Of a stretch of 64,000 nucleotides of DNA, positions 7,090 through 63,341 are shown piece after piece. The first letter of the stretch is position 1, and every line of letters starts with the position of its first letter. Origin of the DNA: Pontibacillus chungwhensis (GTDB taxonomy: Bacteria > Bacillota > Bacilli > Bacillales > BH030062); contig NZ_CP126446.1 in assembly GCF_030166655.1 (NCBI RefSeq), forward strand, positions 3,906,001 through 3,970,000, written 5' to 3'. The notes beneath the pieces are model-generated. The model saw only the letters and a program-made list of their open reading frames with translations, was not told where the DNA came from and did no database searches. A program made the translations under genes and the position numbers.

Positions 7090-7307
7090 CTAATATGGCA
7101 TGTTTCCGTTTTTTCATTTATGGCAAAGGTGGTTCGGGAAATTGCGAGACTCCTGCGGCAGTAGGAGCCTAGGGGAGACCCCACAGAGAGCGCAAGCGAA
7201 CGAGGAGGCTTCCCAGCTCGCCGCGGAAAGCGAGTGATTTCCCGAACCACCTTCCGCTCAGACTAATGCTAACGGAAACATTCTCACTTTCCGGTGCTCC
7301 ATATTAG
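7090..7307. repeat. Long-hairpin repeat, copy R1 (complete)
   Basis: This 218-bp element has three nested perfect inverted repeats: CTAATATGG (7090-7098) with CCATATTAG (7299-7307), TGTTTCCGTT (7101-7110) with its complement (7271-7280), and a 17-bp stem AAGGTGGTTCGGGAAAT (7126-7142) with its complement (7237-7253). The interior carries GCGAGACTCCTGCGG, GGGGAGACCCC, GAGGAGGCTTCCC and CCGCGGAAAGCGAGTG, the core shared by all copies here. No credible ORF is present. Similar core motifs are common in Bacillaceae intergenic DNA. Function is unknown. Confidence 0.85.
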
Positions 7308-7380
7308 AGCCTTATATGGAAGGCGTTTAAAATCAACAATCAACTTTAACAAAACTATTCATTAAAGTAAGACCCCATGA

Positions 7381-7411
7381 AAAAAGACAGAGGAAAACTC
7401 CCCTGCCTTTA
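7381..7411 (-). terminator. Probable terminator of the DJ-1/PfpI gene
   Basis: On the minus strand GGCAGGGGAG and CCTCTGTC can pair around a TTTT loop and run into TTTTTT. The stem contains a mismatch and lies about 60 bases past the stop codon. Confidence 0.5.
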
Positions 7412-7467
7412 TCTATAAAACGTATCCCCTGAGAGGCTTTTCCTGTCATTGGGTTACGGTTTACACA

Positions 7468-8130
7468 TTATTGTCCGAGCTTTTGAACGACTTTTCGAGC
7501 CGCTGCTAAACTGGATTGTGGATTCTGGCCTGTAACAAGATTTCCATCCGCTTCTACATGTTCGGTATAGTTCGGTTCAGCCATAAAGTTTGCTCCGATC
7601 TCTGTTAGACGCGTTTCTAGCAAGAAAGGCACCTTTTCATCAAGTCCTTGGTCTTTCTCTTCCGCATTCGTGAAAGCAGTTATTCGTTTTCCATCAATGA
7701 ACGGCTTTCCATTCTGGTTCGTTACCCCAACGAAGGCTGCGGTGCCGTGACAGACGGAACCGATAACTTTATCTTGTTCAAAGAAAGGCTGCAGGGCTTT
7801 CTTGATCGCTTCGTTATCTGGGAAGTCAACCATGGTTCCGTGCCCGCCTGGTAAGAAGACGCCGTCATATTCCTCAGTGTTCAAATCACTTAGAACAGCT
7901 GTATCCTTAAGAGGCTCCATAACCCCTTCCCATTCGTCTGGCTCTTCCCCAGAAATACTATGTGGATCAATTGGGATTTCGCCACCAGCAACGCTTGCTA
8001 CGGTCACGTCATATCCTGCTTGTGTAAATTCCATAAAGGGTTCAGCAAACTCTGATAGCCATAAGCCTGTCTGATGATCTTCATCTAACCGACCTGCATT
8101 GGTTACGATCATTAACATTTTCTTTGCCAT
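7468..8130 (-). CDS. Type 1 glutamine amidotransferase-like protein, DJ-1/PfpI superfamily (Hsp31-like)
   Basis: The 220-residue product belongs to the class I glutamine amidotransferase-like DJ-1/PfpI proteins. The nucleophile elbow GSVCHG gives Cys127-His128. An acidic residue is available in GLWLSEFAEP (Glu27 or Glu30), and VFLPGGHGTM is the typical strand-turn before helix 4. Members of the Hsp31-like branch act as stress chaperones and as glyoxalase III or protein-repair enzymes; which activity applies here is not shown. An AAAGGAG site 8 bases upstream fits the ATG at 8130. The gene is monocistronic. Confidence 0.88.
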   Translation of the reverse strand: MAKKMLMIVTNAGRLDEDHQTGLWLSEFAEPFMEFTQAGYDVTVASVAGGEIPIDPHSISGEEPDEWEGVMEPLKDTAVLSDLNTEEYDGVFLPGGHGTMVDFPDNEAIKKALQPFFEQDKVIGSVCHGTAAFVGVTNQNGKPFIDGKRITAFTNAEEKDQGLDEKVPFLLETRLTEIGANFMAEPNYTEHVEADGNLVTGQNPQSSLAAARKVVQKLGQ

Positions 8131-8318
8131 TTTTACACACTCCTTTAATTCAACACGCTTAAACGAATCTCTACTTGTTTTCTTATCACTAAATGAGTGA
8201 ACTTAAACCTCTAGGCACCTTTCTAATAGGTTTAAGACTCATAGAAATGGGAAGGTAAAACGTAATCACCCAGCCAAACTCACATTACCTATATCAAAAG
8301 AAAAGGAGAGTTGAACAG

Positions 8319-8552
8319 TTGACACACAAACGCCCGTATTCTGTTCATCGCAGACATTTAATCGTATTCTTTCAAACCCAAGAGTGGGTAAAAAACTGGC
8401 GCGGTGCCAGTAAACCGAATATCCAGACCCTTTCCCTTTTCACTGGATATTCTGAAGAAAGCATCATTGAATCTATGGAGTTCGGGCATCCGTCTCTGAT
8501 TGAGAAGAAACCAGAATTCCGTAATTTCGTTAGAAGCACAGCAAGAGTTTGA
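8319..8552 (+). CDS. Small hypothetical protein with helix-turn-helix-like segment
   Basis: This is a possible 77-residue protein. An AAAGGAGAG ribosome site stands 8-10 bases before a TTG start, and a good terminator follows about 60 bases after the stop. Residues 33-55 (IQTLSLFTGYSEESIIES) resemble the second helix-turn-helix of sigma-factor region 3 or 4, but the match is short and is my impression only. I do not recognise the family. The opposite-strand reading frame here is longer but lacks a ribosome site and has an unlikely composition. Confidence 0.45.
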   Translation: MTHKRPYSVHRRHLIVFFQTQEWVKNWRGASKPNIQTLSLFTGYSEESIIESMEFGHPSLIEKKPEFRNFVRSTARV

Positions 8553-8612
8553 TGAGAGTTTATGGCTTGGGTAACTGTCTGATTCTTTGACCTTCATGCA
8601 ACAGGCAGGCAT

Positions 8613-8650
8613 AGAAAAGAGGCGCTTGGATTCAAGCGCCTCTTTTCTAA
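8613..8650. terminator. Bidirectional intrinsic terminator
   Basis: AAAAGAGGCGCTTG pairs with CAAGCGCCTCTTTT around GATT. It sits between the convergent small plus-strand gene and the acyltransferase gene and has T-tracts in both directions. Confidence 0.85.
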
Positions 8651-9663
8651 TGGGTAGAACCTGAGCCCACTTCTTTAACAGGATACTTCTTAACCTTCCA
8701 TCCAAAGGATTTCCACTGAAGAATCGGTGTCATGAGCGTCACGGCAGGTTTCGAGACAAATAGTCCCATTATAATAAACGAAAATGTCACAAGATAAATG
8801 ACATCATACGGAGAGTAAACATGAATTAAGTCGTGTTCACGGATTAACTGGATCACGAAACCATGCAATAAATATACATAAAGCGTATATGCTCCATACT
8901 TTGTCCATGAATAGGTCTTAGTTGGGATCCATGCTAAGACACTAAACGCCATGGAGATACTCACCGCATAACACGCTAATCGGATAAAGCCTCCCCATTC
9001 AGGCATTCTGAGCACTGTGTAAGACTTTGACCCAAAGAACCAACTTGTATCAAATGAAGGAGCGAAGAGAATGGCGAGTGCGACAGAAAGCATAACGCCG
9101 AGTGCCAACACTCTCGTTCTTGTCTCACGTAACCAGTTCATTTCATCTGTGCCAATCCAATGACCGATTAAGAAGAACGGGAAGAATACAAATGTTCTCG
9201 ACAGACTGAACGAATGATCAATCCCACTCATATATCCTACTAAGACACCAATTTGAATGGATATAAAGATCGCCATGTGCTTTGGCAATCGTCTATACCA
9301 ATAAAGCATAATGTGCCAACAGAACAGACTCACCAGGAACCAAAGAGCCCATTGCGGCTCAAATGGAGGCTTCCACCATCCAGACTTCCCTATGAGAGCA
9401 TAATAGATTGTATAAATAGCTTGAAAACTTAAATAAGGAAGCAGGAGTTTCTTCGCCAACTTTAAGGCATATGTTTTATTCATTTTCGCTTGAGCGAAAT
9501 ATCCAGAAACGATTATAAATGCAGGCATGTGGAACGTATAGATCCACTTATAAAGTACGTTGTATAGCGGGTGCTGATCCGTAAAGGGCTGAATCACATG
9601 CCCGAATACGACAAGAAACATTAAAATCCATTTTGCATTATCGAAATAGGCTTCTCTCTTCAT
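8647..9663 (-). CDS. Acyltransferase family 3 membrane protein
   Basis: The 338-residue integral membrane protein starts with FDNAKWILMFLVVFGHVIQP, the N-terminal segment with the conserved His of acyltransferase-3 (fucose 4-O-acetylase-like) proteins, and continues with WIYTFHMPAFIIVSGYFAQ and about ten membrane helices. Proteins of this family acetylate sugars or cell-envelope polymers on the outer side of the membrane. The acceptor is not indicated. An AAAAGGAGGGG site precedes ATG 9663. The gene is single, so its role stays open; cell-wall or exopolysaccharide modification is the likely range. Confidence 0.85.
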   Translation of the reverse strand: MKREAYFDNAKWILMFLVVFGHVIQPFTDQHPLYNVLYKWIYTFHMPAFIIVSGYFAQAKMNKTYALKLAKKLLLPYLSFQAIYTIYYALIGKSGWWKPPFEPQWALWFLVSLFCWHIMLYWYRRLPKHMAIFISIQIGVLVGYMSGIDHSFSLSRTFVFFPFFLIGHWIGTDEMNWLRETRTRVLALGVMLSVALAILFAPSFDTSWFFGSKSYTVLRMPEWGGFIRLACYAVSISMAFSVLAWIPTKTYSWTKYGAYTLYVYLLHGFVIQLIREHDLIHVYSPYDVIYLVTFSFIIMGLFVSKPAVTLMTPILQWKSFGWKVKKYPVKEVGSGSTH

Positions 9664-9769
9664 AACAAACCCCTCCTTTTAGAACGGTTACCACAACCGT
9701 TCGTATATAAGAGGGGGTTTAGGAAGGATGTTATTGAATTGTAATCCTTGTATCACGTAATCGTAATGT

Positions 9770-10624
9770 TTAGGATGTTTTCTTTGACGTTGACTTCTGT
9801 TCGTTCCCAGTTTTAGCAGATTTCTTCTTCGTCGATTTCTTTTTCGTTTTCTTATTATTCTTATCGAGCGACTTCTCGAGTGCCTCCATTAAGTCTGTTA
9901 CATTATCCGGCGTAGGCTTTGGCTCAGCGGTAGAAATGTCTTCATTGTTCTTCTTCGCCTCGATTAGATCAAGGAGCGCTTGACGGTAATCATCCTTATA
10001 TTGTTCAGGATCAAAGTCACTGGTTAGCTGCTCTACAAGTGTCTTCGCTGTTTCTAATTCTTTTTTCCCTAACTCCATCTCTTCAGGTACATTCGGTACT
10101 TCCTTCACGTCTCTGACCTCATCAGGATAATGAATGGTCTCCATCACTAATGTATTCTCATACACCCTTACAATCGCCAGCTGTTCTTTGGATCGTATGA
10201 TAATTTTGGCTACCCCAATCTTCTCTGTATCCGTAAGAGTTTGCCTTAGTAAAGAGTAAGCCTTTGTCCCTCCTTCATCAGGAGAGAGATAATAACTTTT
10301 CTCAAAATAAATCGGATCTATATCTGATAACTTAACGAAGTCCATGATCTCAACCGCTTTAGAAGACTGCTCCTTCTTTAATTCCTCTAGTTCTTCGTCA
10401 TCTAACACAACGAACTTATTCTTTGCATATTCATACGCCTTCACAATTTCTTCTTTCTCTACCTCACGTTCACACACCGGGCATGTACGTTCATATTCAA
10501 TCGGTGATTTGCACTCATCATGAAGCTGACGCAGGCTAATATCTTTATTTTCTGTTGCTGAATGAAGTTTGACCGGAATATTCACGAGACCAAAACTAAT
10601 CGTCCCTTTCCACATTGTATGCAT
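9770..10624 (-). CDS. ku: Ku protein for non-homologous end joining
   Basis: The 284-residue product is bacterial Ku, which encircles DNA ends as a homodimer and recruits LigD. The N-terminus MWKGTISFGLVNIPVKLHSA is diagnostic, and a CxxC pair (TCPVCERE) follows near residue 50. The last 40 residues are almost entirely Lys, Ser and Thr, the basic DNA-binding tail of Bacillus Ku. GTG 10633, ATG 10624 and ATG 10615 are possible starts. I choose 10624 because GAGGGTGA ends 5 bases before it. It diverges from ligD across about 105 bases, which must hold both promoters. In B. subtilis the pair (ykoV/ykoU) is expressed in spores. Confidence 0.95.
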   Translation of the reverse strand: MHTMWKGTISFGLVNIPVKLHSATENKDISLRQLHDECKSPIEYERTCPVCEREVEKEEIVKAYEYAKNKFVVLDDEELEELKKEQSSKAVEIMDFVKLSDIDPIYFEKSYYLSPDEGGTKAYSLLRQTLTDTEKIGVAKIIIRSKEQLAIVRVYENTLVMETIHYPDEVRDVKEVPNVPEEMELGKKELETAKTLVEQLTSDFDPEQYKDDYRQALLDLIEAKKNNEDISTAEPKPTPDNVTDLMEALEKSLDKNNKKTKKKSTKKKSAKTGNEQKSTSKKTS

Positions 10625-10729
10625 AGGATTCACCCTCTTTTTCTTTTAGCGTTTGCAACAAGGCTTTGTTTTATGATGAAACGAGTAAATCAGGAAGGGT
10701 TAGGTACACTAGTGGAAAAGGAGGTTCTT

Positions 10730-12517
10730 ATGCTAAAACCTATGCTTCCAACGCTCACTGAAGATACTCCCGAAGGACCGTCATGGGTGTATGAAGTGAA
10801 ATATGATGGTTTCCGCGCATTACTCCATTGGACCAAGGAAAACGTTACTCTAACAAGTCGAAATGGAAATGACCTAACCGATCAGTTCCCAGAAATTATT
10901 AAAGCAATAGCCGATCAAACGCCATCCGTTAAAAACGAACTCCCCCTTTTGCTTGACGGTGAAATCTGTATCCTCACGACTTCTATTCAAAGTCAATTCT
11001 CACTCTTGCAAAAGCGGAACAGAATGCGAAGTAAAGATCCTATAAATCAAGCCGCAGCGGAACGCCCTGCCACCTTTGTCGCGTTCGACCTTCTTAAACA
11101 AAATAACGAAACCTACATGAGCCAGTCTTATCAAGAAAGGCGCAAAAGACTGGGAAAGTGGAAAGACTGTGTACACATTGTGGACAGCTACTCCAATTTA
11201 AAAGACATTCAAGAGCTTGTTTTCTTGCACAGAGGAGAAGGAATTGTAGCAAAGAACAAGAAAAGTACCTATAAACCTGGTGAACGGAGCAATGATTGGC
11301 TTAAGATTAAAAATTGGCGAGTGATTCAAACGGTGCTTACCGCTTATAAACCAGAGAACGGCTATTTCCATGCAGCTGTGTATAAAGGGGATAACCTTGT
11401 GGATGTGGGTTCTGTGAAACACGGTCTGTCCACAGAGGGTCAACAAACTCTTCAAACTTTCTTTACAAATAAAGGACAAAAATCCGGAGATCTCTATACG
11501 CTCCAAACGGGTGTCTGCGTAGGAGTTCGGTGCCTCCATGCTCAGAAAAATGATTTACGAGAGCCGATGTTTGATTCATTTTTACTAGAGTTATCCCCAG
11601 AAGACTGTACCTTGGATCAAATGGAGTGGGATTTATCCCTTTTTCCACAAATGGAGTATACGAATCTTGATAAAACCCTTTGGCCTGGGCCGCCTTTTCA
11701 AAAGCGAGATCTGTTGATGTATTTACGAAAAGTAGCTCCTTATCTTTTGCCTTTTGTGAAGGATAAGAAGTTAACGGTGATTCGCTTTCCTGAGGGGATC
11801 GATGAGGAATCCTTCTTCCAAAAGCACTTGCCAGACTATGCGCCAATGTTTGTTAACCGACTAGAGGGATCTGAGGAGACTTATATGATCTGTAACGACC
11901 TCCCCACGCTTCTCTGGCATGGGAATCAAGGAGCTATTGAGTATCACCTTCCATTTGAAAAAGTGGATGAAACAGCACCAGATGAGATTGTCTTTGACCT
12001 TGACCCACCTGAACGGGAGGCCTTCCCTCTCGCGATCAAAGCCGCTACCCTTTTAAAAACCATATTTGATCGGCTCGAACTACTGACTTTTGTTAAGACA
12101 AGCGGCGGAAAAGGCATGCAAGTTCATATTCCTATACAGCCTGGAAGCTTAACGTATGAAGAAACCCGTGCATTCACTGAGAAGGTCGCTCAATTGGTGA
12201 TAGGGCAACATCCCGACCTGTTTACAACCGAACGCTTAAAAAAGAATCGGGGCAACCGCCTCTACATTGACTATGTTCAGCATGCTGAGGGTAAGACCAT
12301 TATCTCCCCCTATTCCCCTCGAGGTCGGGAGGGCGCAACTGTAGCAACACCGCTTTACTGGGAGGAAGTCAAGGAGACATTAGATCCTTCCTCTTTCCAT
12401 ATCGGAAATACATTAGATCGCCTCGAAGAAATAGGATGTCCATTCGCTTCTTTCCATGAAACACGAGAAGCCCAGAACTTACAGCTCGTTAAGAAATTGA
12501 TTGAAGAAGAATCGTGA
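10730..12517 (+). CDS. ligD: NHEJ ATP-dependent DNA ligase LigD (ligase plus polymerase domains)
   Basis: The 595-residue protein joins double-strand breaks with Ku. The ligase domain is N-terminal, with nucleotidyl-lysine Lys24 in YEVKYDGF, LLDGEICI, EGIVAKNKKSTYKPGERS and WLKIKNW as successive ligase motifs. The LigD polymerase (primase-like) domain follows from about residue 310, with EYTNLDKTLWP and the metal-binding FDLDPPE near residue 420. No phosphoesterase domain is present, as in B. subtilis LigD. The reading frame is open back to 10562, but AAAGGAGG immediately before ATG 10730 and homology starting at MLKPMLPTL fix the start. A terminator shared with the next gene follows. Confidence 0.96.
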   Translation: MLKPMLPTLTEDTPEGPSWVYEVKYDGFRALLHWTKENVTLTSRNGNDLTDQFPEIIKAIADQTPSVKNELPLLLDGEICILTTSIQSQFSLLQKRNRMRSKDPINQAAAERPATFVAFDLLKQNNETYMSQSYQERRKRLGKWKDCVHIVDSYSNLKDIQELVFLHRGEGIVAKNKKSTYKPGERSNDWLKIKNWRVIQTVLTAYKPENGYFHAAVYKGDNLVDVGSVKHGLSTEGQQTLQTFFTNKGQKSGDLYTLQTGVCVGVRCLHAQKNDLREPMFDSFLLELSPEDCTLDQMEWDLSLFPQMEYTNLDKTLWPGPPFQKRDLLMYLRKVAPYLLPFVKDKKLTVIRFPEGIDEESFFQKHLPDYAPMFVNRLEGSEETYMICNDLPTLLWHGNQGAIEYHLPFEKVDETAPDEIVFDLDPPEREAFPLAIKAATLLKTIFDRLELLTFVKTSGGKGMQVHIPIQPGSLTYEETRAFTEKVAQLVIGQHPDLFTTERLKKNRGNRLYIDYVQHAEGKTIISPYSPRGREGATVATPLYWEEVKETLDPSSFHIGNTLDRLEEIGCPFASFHETREAQNLQLVKKLIEEES

Positions 12518-12534
12518 AAGAAATTATACAAAAG

Positions 12535-12571
12535 AGGCTTAGAGATCTAAAACTCTAAGCCTTTAATTTTT
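12535..12571. terminator. Bidirectional terminator between ligD and the hydrolase gene
   Basis: AGGCTTAGAG and CTCTAAGCCT form a perfect 10-bp stem with TTTAATTTTT on one side and an A-rich tract on the other. Confidence 0.85.
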
Positions 12572-15827: not shown

Positions 15828-18713
15828 TTACTTAATTTGTTTGTGTAGCATGTAAACCACTTTCGCTGCTTGTCCGCGATTTGCATTTGCTAATGGGTCA
15901 AAGTCATTCCCATTATACCCTTCCATGATACCAAGCTCTCTGGCAGCATCGATATAGTGGTTAAAGTAATCATTGATTTCATTTTCATCATCGTACATGT
16001 AATCTTCAGTCACTTCATATTCCATACCCATTTTTGCCTCATAGGCTTCAACTAGCATAACAGCCATTTCCTGGCGTGTAATGGAGCGATGAGGAGCAAA
16101 TTTAGTTTCAGATATTCCATCTGTAATACCAACCTGGTAGGCAGCAGCTACTTCATCTGCAAATGTGTCCCCCACATCATCAAATGGAACTTCCATATCT
16201 GTTTCAAACCCAAGTGATCTTACAAGAATGGCTGTAAACTCACCACGTGTGATCTCTCTTGCAGGTTCAAAATGGTTTTCGTCTACTCCTTTTACGACAC
16301 CTTGATCAGCAAGGGCCTGAATTGGTTCATAAGCCCAATGGTCTTTCGGTACATCTTCAAACATAGCTTCTTCGACTGGTTCTTTATCTTCCGTTTCAAA
16401 TTGTTCAGGATACTGATTCACGATCGCACCACTGAATAGTTTAGCCGGCGTAAACATATGACCATATCCACTACGCGCAATTCTCCATGCCGCATCATAA
16501 TCTTCGTCGACGTATTTATCGAACGTCTTCGTCAACTGGTCAACGTGCACTGCCAATCCTTGTGCCAATTTAGCAGATGGAACGCGACCGTCTGTTGCCT
16601 GATCCATAAATAGAGAGAAGTCTTTACGATAGTCATCTAACTCATCAAGGGCTTTTTGTTTCGCTTCTTCATCATCACTGGCTGTTGCCTTTACGTAATC
16701 AACAAAGTAGCCGATATGTGAGCTCCACAGATCTTTAAATTGTTCGCCTGCCTCATCCCCGTAAACAGATCCAATGGCAGAAGCCAATTCTTCTGTATTC
16801 ATAGATAGGGTTTTAACATTGGCATCAAACTCTGGTGCTCCTTCAATGCCGTTTTGCATCGCCTGCTGAGCTAGGGCAAAGTGCTCAGACAGAAGGAAAT
16901 CAAGGCGGGAACGAAGCTCAGCCGCAGGTGTCATCGCTTTCGTTTCGTTATATTCTTCAGGGAACTGGCTTACGATCGCACTAGACAGACCTTTACTGGT
17001 CATATACATGTGTTCCATCGCATTACTCTGAATCATATACGCTTTCTCATAGTCTCCATCAACGAATGCTTCAAATCCATCGATAAGTTGATCCTTATGA
17101 GTTTCAAGCCCTTCAGCAAGACCTTCCGCTTTTAGTTTTCCATCTGTTGCAGTAGAGATGAATTGAGAGAATTCTTCTTTATAGTCAGAAAGGTTATCTA
17201 ATGCCTCCTGCTTGGCTTCTTCGTTGCCTTCACCTGTTGCTGTTACATAATCAACGAAGTAACCAACGTGGTCGCTCCACAGGTCTTTAAATTGTTCGCC
17301 AGCGTCTTCTCCATATACGTTTGTCATGGCCATGGCTAAATCATCTGTGTTTTTGCTAAGCGCTTCAGCAGCCTGGGAGAAGTCTTCGTCCCCGTTTGCT
17401 CCTTTACGCATCGCTGTCATCGCTAAATACACATGCTCAGAGAATAAACGATCAAGGGTTGCGCGAAGTTCAACCGCAGGAGTTGAAACGGTTGGGCCAT
17501 CCATTTCTGTTGTAAATAGATCTGGATATTGCTTCACAATCGCACTGCTAAATAGCTTCGCTGGAGTAAACATGTGGCCATATCCTTCACGGGCGATTTC
17601 CCAAGCTTTGTCATAATCTTCATTTACATACGCATCGAATGTTCCCGTTAGTTGTTTAACGTGTGTTTGAAGACCTTTGGCAAGTCCATCTGCCGGCACG
17701 CCACCATCTGTTGCTGTACTCATAAAGGAAGAAAAGTCTTCACGATATTCATCCAGCTCATCTAACGCGTCCTGACGTGCTTCTTCATCTTGTTCCCCTG
17801 TTGCCACCACGTAATTAACGAAATATTGAATATGAGAACTCCAAAGCTTCTTGAACTTCTCTTCTCCTTTATCTCCATAGACGGAGCCAATGGTCGCAGC
17901 TAGCTCATCTGTGTTCGCATTTAGCGTATTAAGATTTGCCTCAAATTCCGGTGCTCCCTGGATGCCATTTTGCATCGCTTGTTGAGCAAGCGCAAAGTGC
18001 TCAGACAACAAGAAATCTAAATCAGAACGAAGCTGGGCAGCTTTCGTAACTGATTTCGTCGAATTGAACTTGTCAGGATATTGATTCACAATCGCACTTG
18101 AGAGCCCCTTACTCGTCATATACATATGCTCCATGGCTTCACTTTGAGTCTCGTAAGCTGCTTCATAGTCTCCTTCTACAAATTCGTTAAAGCCTCTGAT
18201 TAGCTGATCTTTATGCGTTTCTAACCCTTCAGCTAATGCCTCAGCTTTAAGCTGTCCATTGGTAGCGTTTGAAATAAACGTAGAGAATTCTTCTTTATAA
18301 TCAGAAAGGTTAGCAAGCGCTTCTTCTTTCGCATCTTCATCCTCAGCAGCCGTAGCCTTTACATAATCTACGAAGTACCCAACGTGATCACTCCATAATT
18401 GATTGAACTTCTCACCGGCGTTCACTCCATAAACACTGGCCATCGCCATTGTTAAATCTTCTGTATTTCCATTTAAAGCTTCTGCAGCTTCTTCAAAGTC
18501 AGGGTCTCCGTTTGCCCCTTTCCTCATCGCTGTCATCGCTAAGTACACATGCTCAGAGAACAGTTTATCAAGCGTTGCTCTAAGCTCAACCGCTTCCGTT
18601 TGTACTGTTGGCTTCATCACTTTCTCTCCGTGATTGTCTGCAAATGTAATGCTACTTGGAATAAGCAAAGAAGCACTTAACGCCCCTGCTGTTACAACTC
18701 GTTTAATATTCAA
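15828..18713 (-). CDS. S-layer-homology surface protein with four histidine-bearing helical modules
   Basis: The 961-residue exported protein has a signal peptide (about 1-25, ending ITFADN). Four ~175-residue modules alternate as A1 (41-216), B1 (225-400), A2 (412-587) and B2 (596-772), followed by three SLH domains (about 784-835, 844-890, 908-960) that tie it to the cell wall. A1 and A2, and B1 and B2, are 371-372 residues apart, so an A-B pair was duplicated. Each module has four histidines at equivalent places: SEH, SxH before the YFVxYV helix, THxxQL or its variant, and a HM motif. The composition is acidic, as in halophile surface proteins. I do not know the module's family; metal or haem binding is only suggested by the histidines. 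The TTG start has GGGAGGT upstream. Confidence 0.85.
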   Translation of the reverse strand: MNIKRVVTAGALSASLLIPSSITFADNHGEKVMKPTVQTEAVELRATLDKLFSEHVYLAMTAMRKGANGDPDFEEAAEALNGNTEDLTMAMASVYGVNAGEKFNQLWSDHVGYFVDYVKATAAEDEDAKEEALANLSDYKEEFSTFISNATNGQLKAEALAEGLETHKDQLIRGFNEFVEGDYEAAYETQSEAMEHMYMTSKGLSSAIVNQYPDKFNSTKSVTKAAQLRSDLDFLLSEHFALAQQAMQNGIQGAPEFEANLNTLNANTDELAATIGSVYGDKGEEKFKKLWSSHIQYFVNYVVATGEQDEEARQDALDELDEYREDFSSFMSTATDGGVPADGLAKGLQTHVKQLTGTFDAYVNEDYDKAWEIAREGYGHMFTPAKLFSSAIVKQYPDLFTTEMDGPTVSTPAVELRATLDRLFSEHVYLAMTAMRKGANGDEDFSQAAEALSKNTDDLAMAMTNVYGEDAGEQFKDLWSDHVGYFVDYVTATGEGNEEAKQEALDNLSDYKEEFSQFISTATDGKLKAEGLAEGLETHKDQLIDGFEAFVDGDYEKAYMIQSNAMEHMYMTSKGLSSAIVSQFPEEYNETKAMTPAAELRSRLDFLLSEHFALAQQAMQNGIEGAPEFDANVKTLSMNTEELASAIGSVYGDEAGEQFKDLWSSHIGYFVDYVKATASDDEEAKQKALDELDDYRKDFSLFMDQATDGRVPSAKLAQGLAVHVDQLTKTFDKYVDEDYDAAWRIARSGYGHMFTPAKLFSGAIVNQYPEQFETEDKEPVEEAMFEDVPKDHWAYEPIQALADQGVVKGVDENHFEPAREITRGEFTAILVRSLGFETDMEVPFDDVGDTFADEVAAAYQVGITDGISETKFAPHRSITRQEMAVMLVEAYEAKMGMEYEVTEDYMYDDENEINDYFNHYIDAARELGIMEGYNGNDFDPLANANRGQAAKVVYMLHKQIK

Positions 18714-25877: not shown

Positions 25878-25979
25878 ATGTCTAACAGTTATGGTGGAGG
25901 ATTTGCTTTAGTAGTTGTGTTATTTATTCTTCTAATTATTATCGGCGCTGGAGCGTTCAGCGGCGGATACGGATACTAA
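25878..25979 (+). CDS. yjcZ: YjcZ family tiny transmembrane (sporulation-associated) protein
   Basis: The 33-residue protein starts MSNSYGGGFALVVVLFIL, has one hydrophobic helix (about 9-23), and ends GAFSGGYGY. This Gly/Tyr-flanked single-helix layout is the hallmark of the YjcZ/tiny-TM family found in spore-forming Bacillaceae, often expressed in sporulation. GAGGTGGAG precedes ATG 25878. Its stop codon is the first three bases of the 155-bp tandem repeat that follows. A palindrome lies just upstream. Family membership is clear; the molecular role is not known. Confidence 0.88.
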   Translation: MSNSYGGGFALVVVLFILLIIIGAGAFSGGYGY

Positions 25980-26214
25980 TCCCAAAAGCATAAGCCCCCC
26001 GGTTAGCAACGTATAGACTGGACTGAGCCGGCGTGAGATAAAGGAAACACGATGAGCATACGCGAATCGATGTTGACTTATCGATCAGAGGTGAGGGAAG
26101 TCTACTAGTTGCTGGGGACTGGAGCTAGATGTAATCCCAAAAGCATAAGCCCACCGGTTCGCAACGTATAGACTGGACTGGGCCGGCGTGAAATTTTGGA
26201 AACACAATGAGCAT
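25977..26214 (+). repeat. Tandem 155-bp repeat, candidate structured RNA
   Basis: Copy 1 (25977-26131) starts TAATCCCAAAAGCATAAGCC and contains AACGTATAGACTGGACTG, GGAAACACGATGAGCATA and an ATCGAT-N8-ATCGAT hairpin. Copy 2 (26132-26214) repeats the first ~80 bases with few changes, then meets a terminator. No ORF with a ribosome site is present. The high conservation outside coding DNA, together with CCGG...CCGG and other self-complementary blocks, suggests a structured element, but I do not recognise an RNA family. Confidence 0.55.
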
Positions 26215-26215
26215 A

Positions 26216-30866: not shown

Positions 30867-30955
30867 CATGTGAGTGTTTTAAAAAAACGGACATACGTCC
30901 AGAATTTTCTGACTACGGCTGGTTTTATACTTATCACCAGTAAAGTCTACTCCTA

Positions 30956-31098
30956 TTCCTTCTCCCATCCGGACTTTAACCGTCGGCTTTGGTTTCTCAC
31001 CAAATCAACCGCAAAGCGTACTCTGCGGGTCGCGGGCTAGCAAGGCAAAAGCTTGATCACCGCCGGTTGGGATTTTCACCCGACCCCGAAGGAACTAT
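30956..31098 (-). ncRNA. FMN riboswitch (RFN element)
   Basis: Read on the minus strand, the conserved RFN blocks occur in order: CCTTCGGGGTCGGGTGAAA, CCCAACCGGCGGTGAT, AGCCCGCGACCC, GGTGAGAAACC, AAGCCGACGGTTAAAGTCC and GGATGGGAGAAGGA. These form the six-helix FMN aptamer. With FMN bound, the downstream terminator is expected to form and shut off ribDEBAH. Confidence 0.97.
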
Positions 31099-34749: not shown

Positions 34750-35035
34750 GAGTGTTTCCGTTTGCCGAAATTGAGTGTAAGGTGGTCCTGGAAACCACTC
34801 GCTTTCCTGTGGGGAGCTGGTGAGCCTCCTCAGCCGGCAAGCCGGCTTCCGGGGTCTCACCTAGATTGAAATGTGCAAGCGTGGTGCCTAGGACCGTACG
34901 GATAAGACAGCTTTTTGGAAAAGGCGTTTAGCCTTTGGAAAAAAGATGACTTATCGCGCTAGGTCCTCCACGCTGGAACTAGCCTAGGCTCCACTTCCCG
35001 CGGGAGTCTCGCCGTCCCCGGGCAAGCCCTACCTT
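34750..35035. repeat. Long-hairpin repeat, copy R2 (interrupted)
   Basis: The left half carries GTGTTTCCGTT, AAGGTGGTCCTGGAAACCACTC, GCTTTCCTGTGGGGAGC and GAGCCTCC, and the right half carries CCTAGGCTCC, CCCGCGGGAGTCTCG and CCCCGGGCAAGCCCTACC. The halves are separated by a 118-bp insert at 34865-34982. The closing stems do not match each other, so this copy looks chimeric. It fills most of the 34634-35227 gap, which otherwise shows only a promoter region for the next gene. Confidence 0.75.
34865..34982. mobile_element. 118-bp hairpin element inserted in repeat R2
   Basis: The insert is flanked by CCTAG on both sides (34860-34864, 34983-34987) and absent from the other copies. Its outer halves GCGTGGTGCCTAGGAC and GTCCTCCACGC and inner halves CGGATAAG and CTTATCG, then CTTTTTGGAAAAGGC and GCCTTTGGAAAAAAG, make one long imperfect hairpin. 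It has no coding capacity and resembles a MITE or a palindromic REP-like unit. Confidence 0.55.
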
Positions 35036-44264: not shown

Positions 44265-44346
44265 CCCTTTTCCTCCTACCAGACGTTTCACCTTTATACA
44301 AGGCTCTGTTAAAGTTGGTTGTTGATTTTTACACGTCACATAGTCC

Positions 44347-44563
44347 CTAATATGGGGCGCCGGAAAGTGGAATAGTTCCGTTAGCGTTAGTTAGAGCGTA
44401 AGGTGGTTCGGGAAATCACTCGCTTTCCGCGGCGAGCTGGGAAGCCTCCTCGTTCGCTTGCGCTCTCTGTGGGGTCTCCCCTAGGCTCCTTCTGCCGCAG
44501 GAGTCTCGCAATTTCCCGAACCACCTTTTCCGTATTTAGAATAACGGATACATGCCATATTAG
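44347..44563. repeat. Long-hairpin repeat, copy R3 (complete, inverted relative to R1)
   Basis: CTAATATGG (44347-44355) and CCATATTAG (44555-44563) bound the element, and AAGGTGGTTCGGGAAAT (44400-44416) pairs with 44511-44527. It is the reverse-complement orientation of R1 at 7090 and shares its stems and outer ends, but with a few base changes inside. Confidence 0.85.
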
Positions 44564-44580
44564 AAAATAGAGTTGAACCT

Positions 44581-44745
44581 ACGCGACCACCCACAGCCGT
44601 AGGGCCGCCTCGTGTGGGGCCGCGGAAAGCGAGTCGTTCCCCAGACACCCCAAGCACGAGTCAATAAAGACGGTCCTATCTACACTTAAATGTCTCAGCT
44701 TTGGGTATTGAACAAGACTATAAAATAACAACACTAAACGATAAC
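44581..44745. repeat. Long-hairpin repeat, half copy R4 with flank segment
   Basis: GGCCGCGGAAAGCGAGTCG and about 110 bases beyond (44624-44745) are an inverted near-identical match to 60523-60641. The other half of the hairpin is missing. The whole gap between R3 and the pgcA terminator holds no gene. Confidence 0.75.
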
Positions 44746-44762
44746 AGATCCTTATATTAAGA

Positions 44763-55546: not shown

Positions 55547-55555
55547 TTATTTGAT

Positions 55556-56823: not shown

Positions 56824-56825
56824 AT

Positions 56826-58361: not shown

Positions 58362-58722
58362 TTAGGTTACCTTCTCCTTTGAATTTTTTTTGCCTTTCAA
58401 ACACAGTGACATACTATCTCATACATAAATAGGTCATGTAAAGGAGGAAACTCAGTTCATTCTGAAGAATAGTATTAGCAAAGCACTCCCCTCCTATGCA
58501 CAATATGGTCTTTCATCTTTCTCTCCCCGCCACTCATATCCTCGAAACGATTTATCCCTATTTCCCACTTTTTTACGTAATTTTATGGAACTTTACCTTT
58601 TTCTTCTTCATTTTCTATTCCCGCCCTTTTTTCATCTATTTCCGCTGCTTCTTTCTCATGGTAAGATGGTACAAGATTTTATTTCGCTTTCGTTTAGTAC
58701 ACCTATAAAGGACGGTTGTCTT

Positions 58723-60510
58723 ATGATGGATCACGCACACCGCGTTTTAGAACAGTACTTTGGCTTCTCTTCGTTTCGATTTGGCCAGGAACCGTTAATT
58801 GAACATGCTTTAAATAAGAAGAATGCTCTTGGAATTATGCCAACGGGTGGCGGGAAGTCCCTTTGCTACCAAATTCCAGGTCTTCTGTTAGATGGAACAG
58901 CTGTTATCATTTCTCCACTTATTTCCTTAATGAAGGACCAAGTGGACTCTTTGAACTCTCACGGTATTACAGCTACGTACATTAATAGTTCCTTATCATA
59001 CGAACAACAATCTGAACGGATGTTTGATATTCAAAAGGGGCGATATCAGTTTGTGTATGTCGCACCTGAGCGATTCGATTCGGAAGGATTTATACGCTCT
59101 CTTCGGCGCACCCGGTTATCTCTTATCGCATTTGACGAAGCCCACTGCATATCGCAATGGGGGCACGATTTCAGACCTAGTTATCGTTCAGTCGTAGGTC
59201 AGATCCAGAAGCTTGGCGAGCTACCTGTTGTAATGGGACTGACGGCCACAGCTACAGAAGAGGTCACAAGAGATATACAACGCCTTCTTTCTATTGAAGA
59301 TCAACACGTTGTGAATACAGGCTTCTCCCGAGATAATTTACATTTTCAGATTGTAAAAGGAAAAGAGAAGCATGATTTCATTCAGGATTATATTCGAACG
59401 AGGCCTAAAGAATCGGGGATCATTTATGCAGCAACAAGGAAAGACATCGATCGCTTGCATCAATGGCTCAGCCGCGAAGGGGTTAAAGTGGCTAAATACC
59501 ATGCAGGTTTATCCGAGCACGAACGTAAGAAGGCCCAGAACCAATTTATCCAGGATGAAGTGACAGTTATGGTTGCGACTAACGCATTTGGCATGGGGAT
59601 CGACAAGTCCAACGTACGTTACGTCATCCATTATGCTATGCCTATGAACATTGAGTCCTATTATCAGGAAGCAGGACGCGCAGGACGTGATGGCGAACAG
59701 AGTGACTGTATCTTGCTCTTCTCGGCCCGGGATATTCACCTTCAAAAATTTCTCATTGAGCAATCGTTGATGGAAGATGAGAAGAAAACCGAAGAATACC
59801 AGAAGCTTCAACAGATGGTGAATTACTGCCATACGGATAAATGCCTTCAGGAATACATGCTGACTTATTTTAAAGATCCATTTGAACATGAACCGTGTGA
59901 GAAATGCAGCAATTGCCAGCACACAGGGGTTATAAAAGATATCACAAGAGAAGCTCAAATCATTCTGTCTTGTGTAAAGAGAATGAACCAACGTTACGGT
60001 TCAGGACTCGTAGCGAAAGTGCTCAAAGGTTCTAAAAGTCAAAAGGTAAGAGAGACCCATTTTCACACGCTTTCGACGTACGGTCTATTATCGAACTTAA
60101 GGGAAAAAGATATTACCCAGATGATTCAATTCTTAGTCGCAGAAGGTTATTTGGCTGTAGAAGATGGAAAGTTCCCGCTTCTGAAACTTACGCAGGAATC
60201 ATTAACCGTCCTTAAAGGGGAGAGAGCGGTTCAAATGATTATCGAAACTGCTCCAACTACACACAGAGAGACAGACGTAAATGAAGATCTCTTTGAAAAA
60301 TTGCGCATGTTAAGAAAGCAGCTTGCTGAGGAACACAAAATCCCACCCTATGTTGTCTTCTCGGATGCTACGCTGAAAGAATTTTGTCTGGTGAAACCTC
60401 AAAATAAAGCAGACATGCTTCAAGTAAAAGGTGTCGGTGAGAAGAAATTCGAGCAATATGGAGTCATATTCCTTGAAGCTCTTCAAGAAGAAACGCATCA
60501 ATATTCCTAA
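58723..60510 (+). CDS. recQ: ATP-dependent DNA helicase RecQ
   Basis: The 595-residue protein unwinds DNA 3' to 5' in recombination and repair. It shows the Walker A GIMPTGGGKSLCYQIPG, DEAH box AFDEAHCISQWGHDFRPSYR, helicase motif VATNAFGMGIDKSNVRYV, AGRAGRDGEQSDC, zinc cysteines CHTDKC and CEKCSNC, winged helix, and an HRDC domain at the C-terminus (about 515-590; FEKLRMLRKQLAEEHKIPPY). The frame is open to 58585, but homology starts at HRVLEQYFGF and AAAGGACGG precedes ATG 58723. The leader 58362-58722 is T/C-rich with no other gene seen. Confidence 0.95.
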   Translation: MMDHAHRVLEQYFGFSSFRFGQEPLIEHALNKKNALGIMPTGGGKSLCYQIPGLLLDGTAVIISPLISLMKDQVDSLNSHGITATYINSSLSYEQQSERMFDIQKGRYQFVYVAPERFDSEGFIRSLRRTRLSLIAFDEAHCISQWGHDFRPSYRSVVGQIQKLGELPVVMGLTATATEEVTRDIQRLLSIEDQHVVNTGFSRDNLHFQIVKGKEKHDFIQDYIRTRPKESGIIYAATRKDIDRLHQWLSREGVKVAKYHAGLSEHERKKAQNQFIQDEVTVMVATNAFGMGIDKSNVRYVIHYAMPMNIESYYQEAGRAGRDGEQSDCILLFSARDIHLQKFLIEQSLMEDEKKTEEYQKLQQMVNYCHTDKCLQEYMLTYFKDPFEHEPCEKCSNCQHTGVIKDITREAQIILSCVKRMNQRYGSGLVAKVLKGSKSQKVRETHFHTLSTYGLLSNLREKDITQMIQFLVAEGYLAVEDGKFPLLKLTQESLTVLKGERAVQMIIETAPTTHRETDVNEDLFEKLRMLRKQLAEEHKIPPYVVFSDATLKEFCLVKPQNKADMLQVKGVGEKKFEQYGVIFLEALQEETHQYS

Positions 60511-60522
60511 ACGAATGACTCT

Positions 60523-60708
60523 GTTATAGTTTAGTGTTGTTATTTTATAGGCTTGTTCAATACCCAAAGCTGAGACATTTAAGTGTAGATGGGGCCGTCT
60601 TTATTGAGTGCTTAGGGTGTCTGGGGAACGACTCGCTTTCCCGAACCACCTTACGCTCAGACTAGCGCTAACGAAAACATTCTCACTTTCCGGTGCTCCA
60701 TATTACAG
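60523..60708. repeat. Long-hairpin repeat, chimeric copy R5
   Basis: Bases 60523-60641 are an inverted near-identical copy of the flank at 44624-44745. Bases 60640-60705 continue CCCGAACCACCTTACGCTCA and TCTCACTTTCCGGTGCTCCA, matching the right end of R1. The whole interior of the hairpin is absent, so it is a junction of two different copies. Confidence 0.75.
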
Positions 60709-60718
60709 AACCAAACGA

Positions 60719-60757
60719 AGAAAACTCCGATTCTGGTTCAGAATCGGAGTTTTCTAT
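60719..60757 (-). terminator. Terminator of the GGCT-like gene
   Basis: GAAAACTCCGATTCT and AGAATCGGAGTTTTC form a 15-bp perfect stem around GGTTC. Confidence 0.9.
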
Positions 60758-60760
60758 CTG

Positions 60761-61408
60761 CTAGGCCTGCTCAGCTACTTGTTGAACGAATTGATGAATC
60801 TCTTCTCTAGAGTAGTGCTCAGGCACACCTGGCTTTTCGTATAAATAGGTTGTAATACGTTCCACATCTGTCGTATAAGCTTCCATAAATCCTCGAATTA
60901 ACATCGCAAGATAAGGAGTAGATGGCCGAGTGATAGTTTGTTCACTTAGTGGTTTCGGATTGGTAAACGTAAAGATTGGGTACCCTTCTTGATTGCCCGC
61001 ATGAAGAAGATTGCCATAGTAAGAATCTTCATCAATAACAAGCGATCCTTCGTTTAACACTTGTTCAATATCCACTTCCATATCCTCTACGCCATTTTCC
61101 TGGCGGACGACGTCTTCGAATTGCTCTTCTGTAATGAGATACATTCTTCCCCAAGTTTCTGTCTGTTCGTCTTTCACTGTATCAATAAAAGCACCCGCTC
61201 CGTCCCAGCGGTCAGACCATCCTGAGAAGTAAAGCTTATAGGGTAAGCTTACAGGGCTATTCTTCAGGGGGAGGGTACAATCCCGGCTACCCACTTCTCT
61301 TCTGTTGGACCCAGGTGGTTGCCCTCCTTCAATATAACAGCGGAACCGATTTTCAAATAGGTTTGATCCGAAACTTGCATACCATACGTAGTTGTCTTGC
61401 TTGCTCAT
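60761..61408 (-). CDS. Gamma-glutamylcyclotransferase-like fold protein
   Basis: The 215-residue protein starts YVWYASFGSNLFENRFRCYI, the YxxYGSN-type start of the gamma-glutamylcyclotransferase/AIG2 fold, and has KLYFSGWSDRWDGAGAFI and WGRMYLITEEQFEDVV. A catalytic Glu of true cyclotransferases cannot be pinned down. An acidic composition fits other proteins here. GGGTGGAG precedes ATG 61408. If it makes 5-oxoproline it would feed the Pcp/PxpABC route of the window, but this is speculation. Confidence 0.65.
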   Translation of the reverse strand: MSKQDNYVWYASFGSNLFENRFRCYIEGGQPPGSNRREVGSRDCTLPLKNSPVSLPYKLYFSGWSDRWDGAGAFIDTVKDEQTETWGRMYLITEEQFEDVVRQENGVEDMEVDIEQVLNEGSLVIDEDSYYGNLLHAGNQEGYPIFTFTNPKPLSEQTITRPSTPYLAMLIRGFMEAYTTDVERITTYLYEKPGVPEHYSREEIHQFVQQVAEQA

Positions 61409-61651
61409 TATTCTCCACCCTTTTCTGTAATGGTTCTGTTACTAGTTGTTGACTATCATGTATTTTCATATAAATCCTCGTATATATCACGTGAAGCTGA
61501 GAATTAACAATCGGGGTGGTCCGTTATGTTTGCTGAGCGCTCGGGCTTGCTCGGGGACCACTCGCTTTCCTACGGGGAGCCGGGAAGCCTCCTCGTTCGC
61601 TCACTGAAGTGAACCCCAAATTTAGGACTTCTATTTGTTAGAAATTGTTAG

Positions 61652-62488
61652 TTATGCAGCTAGTTGATGCTTTTCTCTATAAGAGATTGGACTTGTTTTC
61701 AATTTGGATTTAATTCGATCATGGTTATAGTAATGCATATATTCATCAAGCTCTTGTTTGAAGTGATCTACACTATTAAATTCGCTTATGTAAAGGAATT
61801 CTGACTTCATAATTCCAAAAAAGTTTTCCATGACGGCATTGTCGAGACAGTTTCCTTTGCGAGACATACTTTGTGTAACGCCATATTCTTTAAGAGCTGT
61901 GCGGTATTGAGGCATTTGGTAATGCCAGCCTTGGTCTGAGTGTAAGAGAAGGTCATCGCCTTCTTTAAGGCGTCCTAGAGCCTTGTATAACATCTTTTCT
62001 ACTAAAGAATAGGTAGGGCGATGGCCAATCGTGTATCCGATCACTTCTCCGTTATAAAGATCTAAAACAGTAGATAGGTACAGCTTTTCACCAAATACTT
62101 TGAACTCCGTGATATCTGTAACCCATTTCTGATTAGGAAATTCGGCTTCAAAGGCGCGTTCTAACAGGTTTTGAGCGATTTGGCCAACTTTCCCTTTATA
62201 AGATTTATATTTTTTCACACGAACCACACTTGAAAGACTCAATTCTTTCATTAGACGATAAACTTTCTTGTGGTTTACATGATGCCCTGTGTTCTCTAAT
62301 TCTTGTTGAACACGTCGGTATCCATAACGACCTTTATGTTTATGGTAGATGGACATGATGCGCTCTTTTAAGCCTTGATCTGGATCAGGTTTATTGATTT
62401 TGGAAAGATGGTAGTAAAAATTACTTCTAGATAAACCAGCCATCTTAATTAATTCGTGAAACGGATAGGTGGACCTTAATTCATTCAC
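61652..62488 (-). CDS. IS3-family transposase OrfB
   Basis: The 278-residue integrase-core part has the DDE residues Asp125 (WVTDITEF), Asp185 (LLHSDQGWHY) and Glu221 (VMENFFGIMK), with 35 residues between the last two as in IS3 enzymes, and an N-terminal HTH_21-like region SRSNFYYHL. It overlaps the orfA stop by one base with a GTG start. A slippery A6C stretch (near 62496-62502) lies just before the orfA stop, and the frame is -1 relative to orfA, so the real transposase is likely an OrfAB fusion made by -1 frameshifting. Confidence 0.93.
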   Translation of the reverse strand: MNELRSTYPFHELIKMAGLSRSNFYYHLSKINKPDPDQGLKERIMSIYHKHKGRYGYRRVQQELENTGHHVNHKKVYRLMKELSLSSVVRVKKYKSYKGKVGQIAQNLLERAFEAEFPNQKWVTDITEFKVFGEKLYLSTVLDLYNGEVIGYTIGHRPTYSLVEKMLYKALGRLKEGDDLLLHSDQGWHYQMPQYRTALKEYGVTQSMSRKGNCLDNAVMENFFGIMKSEFLYISEFNSVDHFKQELDEYMHYYNHDRIKSKLKTSPISYREKHQLAA

Positions 62489-63012
62489 TACTTGCGTTTT
62501 TTCGCTTTTGGTGATTTTTCCTTTTCGTGAATTAAGGTTCTTAACTTTTTTAGATAAGCGTTCTCCATACGTAGGTACTCGACTTCTTTTTGAATAGCTT
62601 CAGTATCTATTGCCTGGTCTTTTTTATCATTTTTCTGGTTGTTGGTTTCTTCTGATGACATTCTGGCAGCCCTCTCTTTAGGTGATTCGAGGGCTGCCAT
62701 ACCGCCTTTTTTCCATTTCTTCTTCCACCTACGGACCATAGAGGGATCCGGGATCTGAAAAATGGCTGAGGCAGCCCGAATCGAATAACTCGATTTTTCG
62801 ATAAATTGAACAATCTTCAGTTTAAAGGCAGCCGTGTAATTTGTATAGAGGAAATGGAAAGCTTGTTCCCCATGATAAGTATATAATTGAACCCAATATC
62901 GGATAACCGAGTTGTCAATGTTTAACCGCTTTTCTAGATCGCGATAACTTACGCCACCATTTATATACTCTTGGGCAGCTTGAAGCTTTTCGGTGGGAGT
63001 AAATCTTCCCAT
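62488..63012 (-). CDS. IS3-family transposase OrfA
   Basis: The 174-residue DNA-binding subunit starts MGRFTPTEKLQAAQEYINGG and carries two helix-turn-helix segments (VSYRDLEKRLNIDNSVIRYW and SYSIRAASAIFQIPDPSMVR) followed by a coiled coil rich in Glu/Lys, QKEVEYLRMENAYLKKL, as in IS150-type OrfA. Residues encoded beyond 63012 come from flanking repeat DNA and have no ribosome site, while GGGGGA precedes ATG 63012. Confidence 0.92.
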   Translation of the reverse strand: MGRFTPTEKLQAAQEYINGGVSYRDLEKRLNIDNSVIRYWVQLYTYHGEQAFHFLYTNYTAAFKLKIVQFIEKSSYSIRAASAIFQIPDPSMVRRWKKKWKKGGMAALESPKERAARMSSEETNNQKNDKKDQAIDTEAIQKEVEYLRMENAYLKKLRTLIHEKEKSPKAKKRK

Positions 63013-63210
63013 AAATGATCCCCCTATTTTTGTCCTAAGATAGGGGGGCACTTCACACGCTCTCTGCGGGGTCTCCCCTAGCTCCTTACCCCGCGGGAGT
63101 CTCGCAGTCCCCGAGCAAGCCCTAAGAATAAGTGGATGAACGGACCCGCGTCTTATATGGGGAGAATCTATTTCCCCCAAATGTCACGTTTTCGTTCACC
63201 ATAATATTGC

Positions 63211-63341
63211 TAAGGTGGGACTGGAAACTGCGAGACTCCCGTGGGCAGAAGAGCCTAGGTGAGACCCCGGAGGCCGGCCTGCCGGCTGAGGAGGCTCACC
63301 AGCTCCCCACAGGAAAGCGAGTAGTTTCCAGTCCCACCTTA
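63211..63341. repeat. Long-hairpin repeat, copy R7 (complete)
   Basis: TAAGGTGGGACTGGAAACT (63211-63229) and its exact complement (63323-63341) close the element. The interior carries GCGAGACTCC, GAGCCTAGGTGAGACCCC, an inner GGCCGGCCTGCCGGC hairpin, GAGGAGGCTCACC and CAGGAAAGCGAGTAG. AGCTAACGGAAACATTCC follows just outside, as in R1. No ORF. Confidence 0.85.

Follow-up and report, generated by a model that had tools for sequence, protein, structure and literature searches.

A hairpin repeat family of Pontibacillus chungwhensis, probably MITE-like, with a covarying folded core

Introduction

Among the closest described counterparts of the hairpin repeat family analyzed here, which we followed from a 64,000-nucleotide stretch of the Pontibacillus chungwhensis genome ("the window"; NZ_CP126446.1, positions 3,906,001 to 3,970,000, i.e., 3.906-3.970 Mb of a 4.17-Mb genome), are miniature inverted-repeat transposable elements (MITEs), for which the available excerpts of one survey list the bacterial examples RUP, NEMIS, Bcr1, ERIC and EFAR (PMC3733652). 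The same excerpts describe repetitive extragenic palindromes (REPs) as 20-40 bp long and tagged GTAG or CGTC (PMC3733652). Stem-loop families named Bhal-1 in B. halodurans and Sta-1 to Sta-4 in S. aureus are given, in the excerpted part of a second source, lengths of 74-136 nt, with Sta-2 at 460 nt (PMC2267715).

The family examined here is best described as MITE-like: its elements share a folded core that covaries, and they are distributed across an order. As far as MITEs are characterized in the excerpted survey (PMC3733652), the resemblance extends to being short, non-coding, mostly intergenic and able to fold and, in a subset of copies, to terminal inverted repeats and target duplications; the family differs in its order-wide spread, its conserved covarying core and its one or two head-to-head hairpins per element, and its hairpins often lack recognizable ends. 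With REPs and their associated RAYT transposases it shares hairpin repeats and head-to-head pairs. However, its hairpin of ~128 nt is several times longer than the REPs of the excerpted survey (a judgment by size, tags at the hairpin ends not having been searched for), a subset of its copies carries ends with 8-bp duplications, and no RAYT gene lies nearby in its own genome. Compared by the excerpted descriptions only, Bhal-1 and Sta-1 to Sta-4 are possibly members of the family. Literature searches, covering open-license literature, turned up no paper describing the repeat.

Covariation of the hairpin stems

A previous reading of the window, made from the letters alone (the sequence-only reading), had proposed seven copies or part copies of a long hairpin whose stems change but stay complementary. 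We evaluated this across the genome with a covariance model built from 19 copies, which gave 121 matches at E ≤ 0.001 (best 1.1e-31; 63 plus, 58 minus) when 150 of 761 first-look candidates were scored. The motif GAGGAGGCTN{3,12}GC matched 60+112 times vs 5+1 for the reversed pattern, with some places counted repeatedly because of the variable gap. Once 7 incomplete matches of the 121 were left out, the closing stem was Watson-Crick paired at ≥14 of 17 positions in 111 of 114 near-full-length copies, and at all 17 in 52, vs a maximum of 12/17 for letter-shuffled copies. The three exceptions are a hybrid copy in the window (R2, whose 13/17 is a chance register) and two others. Non-pairing stems elsewhere in the genome had been named as the observation that would speak against a selected hairpin, and the count came out in favor of the proposal.

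Pairing was maintained across very different sequences. The 106 copies aligned in one register carried 64 different 16-nt arms, and 68 of them, with 37 different arms, were perfectly Watson-Crick paired over all 16 positions. Arms taken from different copies reached ≥13 pairs in 145 of 567 combinations, because many copies share a hairpin type. In the own-genome covariation set (81 loci without overlapping or truncated ones; 106 matches at 1e-12 or better), 95.8% of cells paired vs 81.5% with 3' letters shuffled between copies and 36-47% with partners slid, and two-sided changes occurred at 29 of 45 pairs. For 101 matches from other genera, the corresponding values were 90.9% vs 73.3% when shuffled, with two-sided changes at 36 of 45 pairs; this set held 98 loci, i.e., 79 of 120 motif-fetched loci (minus L208 and L221-L260) and 19 from relatives, and because retrieval of those 79 relied on an exact match to GCGAGACTCCTGCGGGA, the columns of that pattern are conserved through sample choice. 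The alignments used (A2, A3, A4) were fitted to an RNA-rule model and lean towards the model's own pairs, and the sequences entering the covariation and mismatch counts are related, so that cells are not independent. Covariation lies far above the shuffled and slid controls, which upholds the proposed covarying hairpin family.

The closing stem is enclosed by an outer stem, located mostly ~22-26 nt upstream with a matching partner downstream, which makes the whole unit ~180 nt. This outer stem was at least 7 bp long in 87 of the 111 copies and occurred in 49 sequence variants (registers uncorrected), and its mean length was 8.10 vs 5.75 for flanks combined from different copies; the outer stem thus covaries as well. 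Inside the closing stem, the inner helices carry conserved internal loops, with GAGACTCC opposite GGAAAGCGAG and GAGACCCC opposite GAGGAGGCT, and both these mismatched loops and fixed wobble pairs are kept across copies in the alignments from the own genome and other genera.

Copies in the window

The copies and associated features in the window are as follows.

7100-7281, plus strand: R1, complete core with outer stem, arms ATGTTTCCGTT (7100-7110) and AACGGAAACAT (7271-7281).
7126-7253, plus strand: R1 hairpin, paired closing stem and conserved inner loops (predicted fold).
34778-35030, minus strand: R2, hybrid copy with non-pairing closing arms and a nested repeat inside (from sequence).
34861-34982, minus strand: nested repeat of ~120 nt within R2, CTAG at each edge, at the same place in other copies.
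44302-44751, no strand: composite element comprising R3 on the minus and R4 on the plus strand, bounded by GGCTCTGTTAAAG on the left and AACAGATCC on the right.
44400-44527, minus strand: R3 hairpin, paired closing stem (predicted fold).
44618-44651, plus strand: R4, 3' fragment belonging to a second type of hairpin (from sequence).
60614-60652, minus strand: R5, deletion hybrid with non-pairing arms, within a decayed composite element (from sequence).
61543-61604, minus strand: R6, 3' half, its arm complementary to the arm at 63096-63123.
~61605-63055, minus strand: IS3-family insertion sequence (IS) in the R6 apical loop, GTG at both junctions.
63056-63123, minus strand: R6, 5' half, absent from the earlier copy list.
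63188-63364, plus strand: R7, complete copy, outer arms GTTTTCGTT (63188-63196) and AACGGAAAC (63356-63364) pairing with one mismatch.
63211-63341, plus strand: R7 hairpin, 21-bp closing stem (predicted fold).

Re-inspection of the sequence located the shared interior motifs and the copies where the sequence-only reading had placed them, and the closing stems do vary from copy to copy. R6, previously listed as a copy of its own, is instead one half of a single hairpin split by the IS3-family insertion (one open reading frame (ORF) matching NF033516 at E 2.4e-99), whose other half lies at 63056-63123 and whose arms are complementary across the insertion. The eight pieces, i.e., the original seven and the missed half, therefore comprise five that make up four complete hairpins and three that do not pair. 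The claim that every complete stem pairs holds for R1, R3, R7 and the split R6, the complete hairpins. The R2 and R5 hybrids and the R4 fragment do not pair: in R2, the 5' arm AGGGCTTGCCCGGGGAC is not complementary to the 3' arm GTTTCCAGGACCACC and another repeat lies between them, and R5 joins the 5' arm of one type to the 3' arm of another.

In the predicted folds of R1, R3 and R7, the long closing stems are paired throughout, with wobbles at the inner end only. These folds are 6.8, 7.2 and 9.4 standard deviations better than dinucleotide shuffles, respectively, and for each none of 200 shuffles was as good. The opposite strand of R1 folds similarly (z -6.3; -65.0 vs -68.6 kcal/mol); good folding of both strands is expected for any long palindrome.

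Spread across genomes and probable relationship to tsr24

The model matched in 44 of 61 genomes, comprising the own genome and others from its genus, family and order, often dozens of times per genome; as ≤56 candidates were scored for each, per-genome counts are lower bounds, and some genomes reach 56. Matches to an exact 17-base core motif among GTDB genome stretches numbered at least 120; of the 120 listed, 116 bear titles of Bacillaceae and allied genera (including Sporolactobacillus, Pullulanibacillus and Jeotgalibacillus). The suggestion that the motif is widespread in Bacillaceae is supported, and the family reaches allied families too, judging from the 44 genomes and from the titles among the motif matches listed. 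The other four titles are Pseudomonas sp. ISL-84 (two), one Treponema metagenome-assembled genome and one unspecified Bacillota metagenome-assembled genome; the Pseudomonas sp. ISL-84 and Treponema records that carry this Bacillales motif (L208, L257, L248) are probably mislabeled or mixed assemblies.

At gathering scores, the hairpin had no Rfam match, and the window's only such match was a flavin mononucleotide (FMN) riboswitch elsewhere. A permissive Rfam search gave a single credible family, RF02577 (tsr24), which matched the hairpin of locus L319 below its gathering score (27.4 bits, E 1.3e-4). Across the order, the tsr24 model matched in 29 of 120 genomes at E ≤0.001, reached its gathering score of 50 in none of the 120 (best 48.1), and had no match in the window's own genome. 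Conversely, the hairpin covariance model R1 also matched six of six tsr24 loci fetched from other genomes. The two share inner sequence and structure, seen in the tsr24 consensus as GGCGAGACUCCUGAGGGAGCAG ... CACCCUAGGAAAGCGAAG; they differ in that tsr24 is a 238-nt model described by Rfam as an S. aureus small RNA. Because of these permissive matches within the order and of the six loci matching model R1, tsr24 is a probable relative, and most likely a member, of the hairpin family. The name tsr24 is absent from the excerpted part of PMC7392542.

Mobility, ends and target duplications

The family is mobile, as seen from presence and absence between two related genomes, G005 and G006, that are collinear with the window. 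At three sites, an element present in both relatives is missing from the window's genome; in turn, the R2, R3/R4 and R5 sites hold an element in the window's genome and none in G005. The R3/R4 composite is missing from both relatives at the syntenic place, and at the R5 site G006 has an end-bearing remnant. The two relatives, 90.5% identical across 362 kb of aligned blocks and with 39 hairpins per contig, also differ from each other: at several sites one carries an element where the other has an empty site. The cleanest of these is a 615-bp element of G005, empty in G006, with a minus/plus hairpin pair, ends GGCTCTGTTCAAG and TTAACAGAGCC, and flanks AATTGTTT/ATTTGTTT.

Where the ends of a copy are recognizable, they are GGCTCTGTTAAAG inverted repeats accompanied by 8-bp duplications; for the R3/R4 composite, the flanking 8-mers are TTATACAA and TTATATTA (2 mismatches). 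A scan of 397 genomes in the order located the strict end pattern GGCTCTGTTAAAGTTN{2,12}GTTGATTT in 16 of them, vs zero matches for the reversed pattern. From these, 30 end-bearing loci were fetched, and a second end with an 8-bp duplication was identified in 14 of them when ≤2 mismatches were allowed, 12 with ≤1 and 5 with 0, non-exact second ends being accepted only if the duplication matched; in the remaining 16 no second end was found. Second ends identified by exact sequence alone, ignoring the duplication, came to 4 loci, with 2, 0, 0 and 0 duplication mismatches. The 14 two-ended elements are 95-678 bp long, and their longest open frame is 104 aa, i.e., no transposase gene lies inside; for the remaining 16 loci, open frames were checked in the first 300 bases. 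The covariance model detected the hairpin in 10 of the 14 two-ended loci and in 15 of the 30 overall, and by eye some of the end-bearing loci without a model match hold hairpin remnants and several do not. In the own genome, the end sequence GGCTCTGTTNAAG occurs at six places, four of them beside hairpins, one in a gene and one intergenic (ORFs at the last two judged by reading).

The 121 genome matches form 98 loci, with 75 single hairpins, 22 minus/plus pairs, one minus/minus pair and zero plus/minus pairs, such that 22 of 23 close pairs are head-to-head. Fifteen of the 22 head-to-head pairs are separated by 54-101 nt, and the remainder by 189-292 nt. Such a strict minus/plus order suggests one unit rather than the product of two chance insertions. 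Of 67 hairpins assessed against tandem genes (crude ORF calls), 29 were co-directional and 38 opposite, with no clear bias, and no strand preference by replication arm was seen (55 vs 66 copies; tally of genome bins with the origin at dnaA). Almost no hairpins lie near the expected terminus (~1.66-2.69 Mb; five of twenty bins, together holding 3 of the 121 matches) or just past the origin (0-0.41 Mb; two bins with 1 of the 121; dnaA at base 340).

Search for a transposase or vehicle

The own genome encodes four Y1 transposases, one short (IS200/IS605-like) and three longer. Up to 1.5 kb from each of these genes, no family hairpin was found (0 matches to the model at E up to 1), and other repeats adjoin three of the genes (by eye). 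A RAYT partner in this genome was therefore rejected, and the idea that the hairpin serves as substrate of a REP-type transposase was not borne out. A second palindromic repeat, of GGTGTCTGACACC type, occurs in the window at 2899, 4301, 23705, 23750, 31211 and 31830 and adjoins a RAYT-like Y1 transposase gene (L268:1950-2030); the two are likely a REP/RAYT pair of this genome. At L269 and L270, other repeats (GGGACAGGTTC type) lie close to the respective Y1 genes (by eye).

The ISL3 and IS6 families make 8-bp duplications and have ends starting GG, and these two were the transposase families tried by profile. They resemble the present elements in both traits, and differ in that beyond GGCTCT their ends diverge from GGCTCTGTTAAAG; an ISL3-type element in genome G175, for instance, starts GGCTCTAGAATATTTGTTGGGG. 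IS6-type profiles matched in 2 of 10 genomes and ISL3-type profiles in 4 of 11, the genomes being chosen mostly for such ends. When the IS6 loci were scanned, together with other loci, for paired ends with a duplication, no IS6 element with the family's ends was found, nor was an ISL3 element with them among seven ISL3 loci examined out of ten (L352, L354 and L356 left out). As for other vehicles, no phage record matched one 457-nt query, two exact patterns hit no viral contig, and six Peribacillus and Priestia plasmid records matched weakly.

Proposed balance between propagation and decay

Given that a G.T pair on one strand is an A.C pair on the other, mismatches can indicate which strand folds. 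Across other genera, rare mismatches showed G.T:A.C ratios of 55:25 in the inner helices (p 0.001) and 38:16 in the closing stem (p 0.004), cells again not being independent; with all cells and fixed wobble pairs included, the ratios were 147:25 and 59:16, and 106:15 and 48:9 in the own genome. The cross-genus G.T excess therefore suggests that one strand folds and makes a symmetric DNA cruciform less likely. The sequence-only reading had offered RNA, cruciform DNA or a REP-type substrate as the selected form: the covarying hairpin itself is supported, and the cruciform option loses ground. That reading had not noted the tsr24 link, the 8-bp duplications at the ends, the outer stem or the head-to-head pairing. 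The joint change of the two arms suggests a role of folding in the spread of the element.

We consider it somewhat probable (roughly 0.57) that the copies represent a non-autonomous, MITE-like mobile element with a conserved folded core, which is in part a DNA transposon and whose fold is selected during propagation on one strand. Such an element would have spread across the order with a core of ~180 nt made up of the outer stem, then an asymmetric internal loop, the closing stem of 17-19 bp and, innermost, the helices with their conserved loops. It would carry either a single hairpin or a head-to-head pair. For at least part of the family, movement would be that of a DNA transposon with GGCTCTGTTAAAG ends and 8-bp AT-rich target duplications, presumably driven by a DDE-type transposase acting in trans. 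Selection on the fold would take place as element lineages propagate, on one strand, be it RNA or single-stranded DNA, and resident copies would then decay, exchange sequence and gather nested insertions. We infer, in other words, that the fold is selected on lineages as they spread and little on resident copies.

Several observations weigh against this. In the own genome, rare mismatches have G.T:A.C ratios of 18:15 (inner) and 11:9 (closing), i.e., no RNA-like bias. Across 12 kin pairs, i.e., orthologous sites in related genomes, stems diverged by 2.0% vs 5.9% for flanks and unpaired hairpin columns, so that resident copies may be under some constraint, or may be exchanging sequence with one another; the comparison used 12 of 25 pairs matched by hand from synteny and dropped flanks with <80% identity. 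Of the 18 changed pairs in this set, 15 were changed on one side only, and in 10 pairing was lost in one genome. Strict ends occur in far fewer genomes (the 16 of 397) than the hairpin, the model detects a hairpin in 15 of 30 end-bearing loci only, and in the own genome an end with ≤2 mismatches survives on one side or the other in just 15 of 98 loci (at most 2 loci in the wrong-orientation control). Given that half of the end-bearing loci lack a model hairpin and that strict ends are found in few genomes, ends and hairpin are therefore not tied: either ends decay while hairpins persist, or the hairpin spreads by further ways. Finally, no autonomous element with these ends was obtained via the IS6 and ISL3 profiles (10 and 11 genomes), own-genome ends or viral contigs.

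A further, rather unlikely reading is a hairpin that is itself the selfish entity. It would be a strand-specific motif, as RNA or as a single strand, distributed across the order from Bacillaceae to the Staphylococcus RNA tsr24, that rides DNA transposons, has its shape kept by selection in each round of spread and acts as a landing hub for other elements, such as the IS3-family element of the apical loop and the two nested repeats at fixed loop places. Another rather unlikely alternative is a structured RNA useful to the host, as a small RNA or mRNA-end element, which mobile elements would have spread and host selection kept, tsr24 being one example. Its case is made by the Rfam listing of tsr24 as a small RNA together with the six tsr24 loci matching model R1, by the conserved inner loops and fixed wobble pairs, and by the lower divergence of stems than flanks in the 12 kin pairs; yet hairpins show no orientation preference towards tandem genes (29 vs 38 of 67), sites are gained and lost between relatives at 90.5% identity, own-genome rare mismatches lack a G.T bias, and none of 120 genomes reached the tsr24 gathering score.

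Complementarity might also persist without any selection, if hairpin-templated mutation (strand switching) and exchange among copies kept the arms matched, which we regard as unlikely. Arms in the own genome are indeed mostly Watson-Crick with few wobbles, and exchange is visible in the two hybrids of the window, R2 and R5, as well as at those 8 of 25 kin sites where the hairpin type differs (by eye). However, mismatched inner loops are conserved rather than corrected, changes are mostly one-sided (15 of the 18 changed pairs), and G.T is in excess across genera. At most of these 8 sites only one flank aligns well, so that replacement or conversion and separate insertion are indistinguishable there. 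Exchange between copies, which the sequence-only reading had considered, as gene conversion, for a simple origin of the pattern, does occur; it does not readily account for 37 arms among 68 perfect copies. A REP-type system, in which a RAYT-like Y1 transposase acts on a folded single strand, appears very unlikely. Paired head-to-head hairpins are the arrangement of bacterial interspersed mosaic elements, which the pairs here resemble, the genome has Y1 transposases, and one-strand folding is favored across genera; but the lack of hairpins within 1.5 kb of the four Y1 genes, three of which lie beside other repeats, the terminal inverted repeats and 8-bp target duplications of the end-bearing subset, and the absence of a strand preference by replication arm (55 vs 66) argue otherwise.

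The family, whose one folding unit matches in 44 of 61 sampled genomes, provides hundreds of natural variants of one fold, through which selection on resident copies can be directly distinguished from selection on the spreading lineage. Should the fold prove necessary for movement, this would be a DNA transposon dependent on a structured core.

Insertions into the hairpin and other window features

IS ends (TGAAGTG...) were observed in or near the apical loop of three hairpins, i.e., at window positions 61605-63055, at L068:1446 and at L241, the last on the minus strand in Halobacillus litoralis and thus in another genus or species. This suggests an IS3-family element targeting the apical loop of the hairpin; IS3-family elements that target REP loops exist. 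The ~120-nt nested repeat seen in R2 is inserted at the hairpin CTAG in own-genome (G000) copies at 828199, 1114309, 1120579, 1326673 and 3879465, and probably also at 1180691 (split match); it is further found in a G005 copy whose orthologous G006 hairpin is intact. A second insert, of ~64 nt, occupies another fixed loop place of the hairpin.

Elsewhere in the window, the FMN riboswitch lies at 30953-31097 (minus strand, 119.9 bits), and a 961-aa ORF at 15828-18713 contains four diverged repeat units at 552-564 bp spacing. Two 84-nt direct repeats, 90% alike, are located at 25977-26215, and similar sequence is found at a different syntenic place in G005 and G006.

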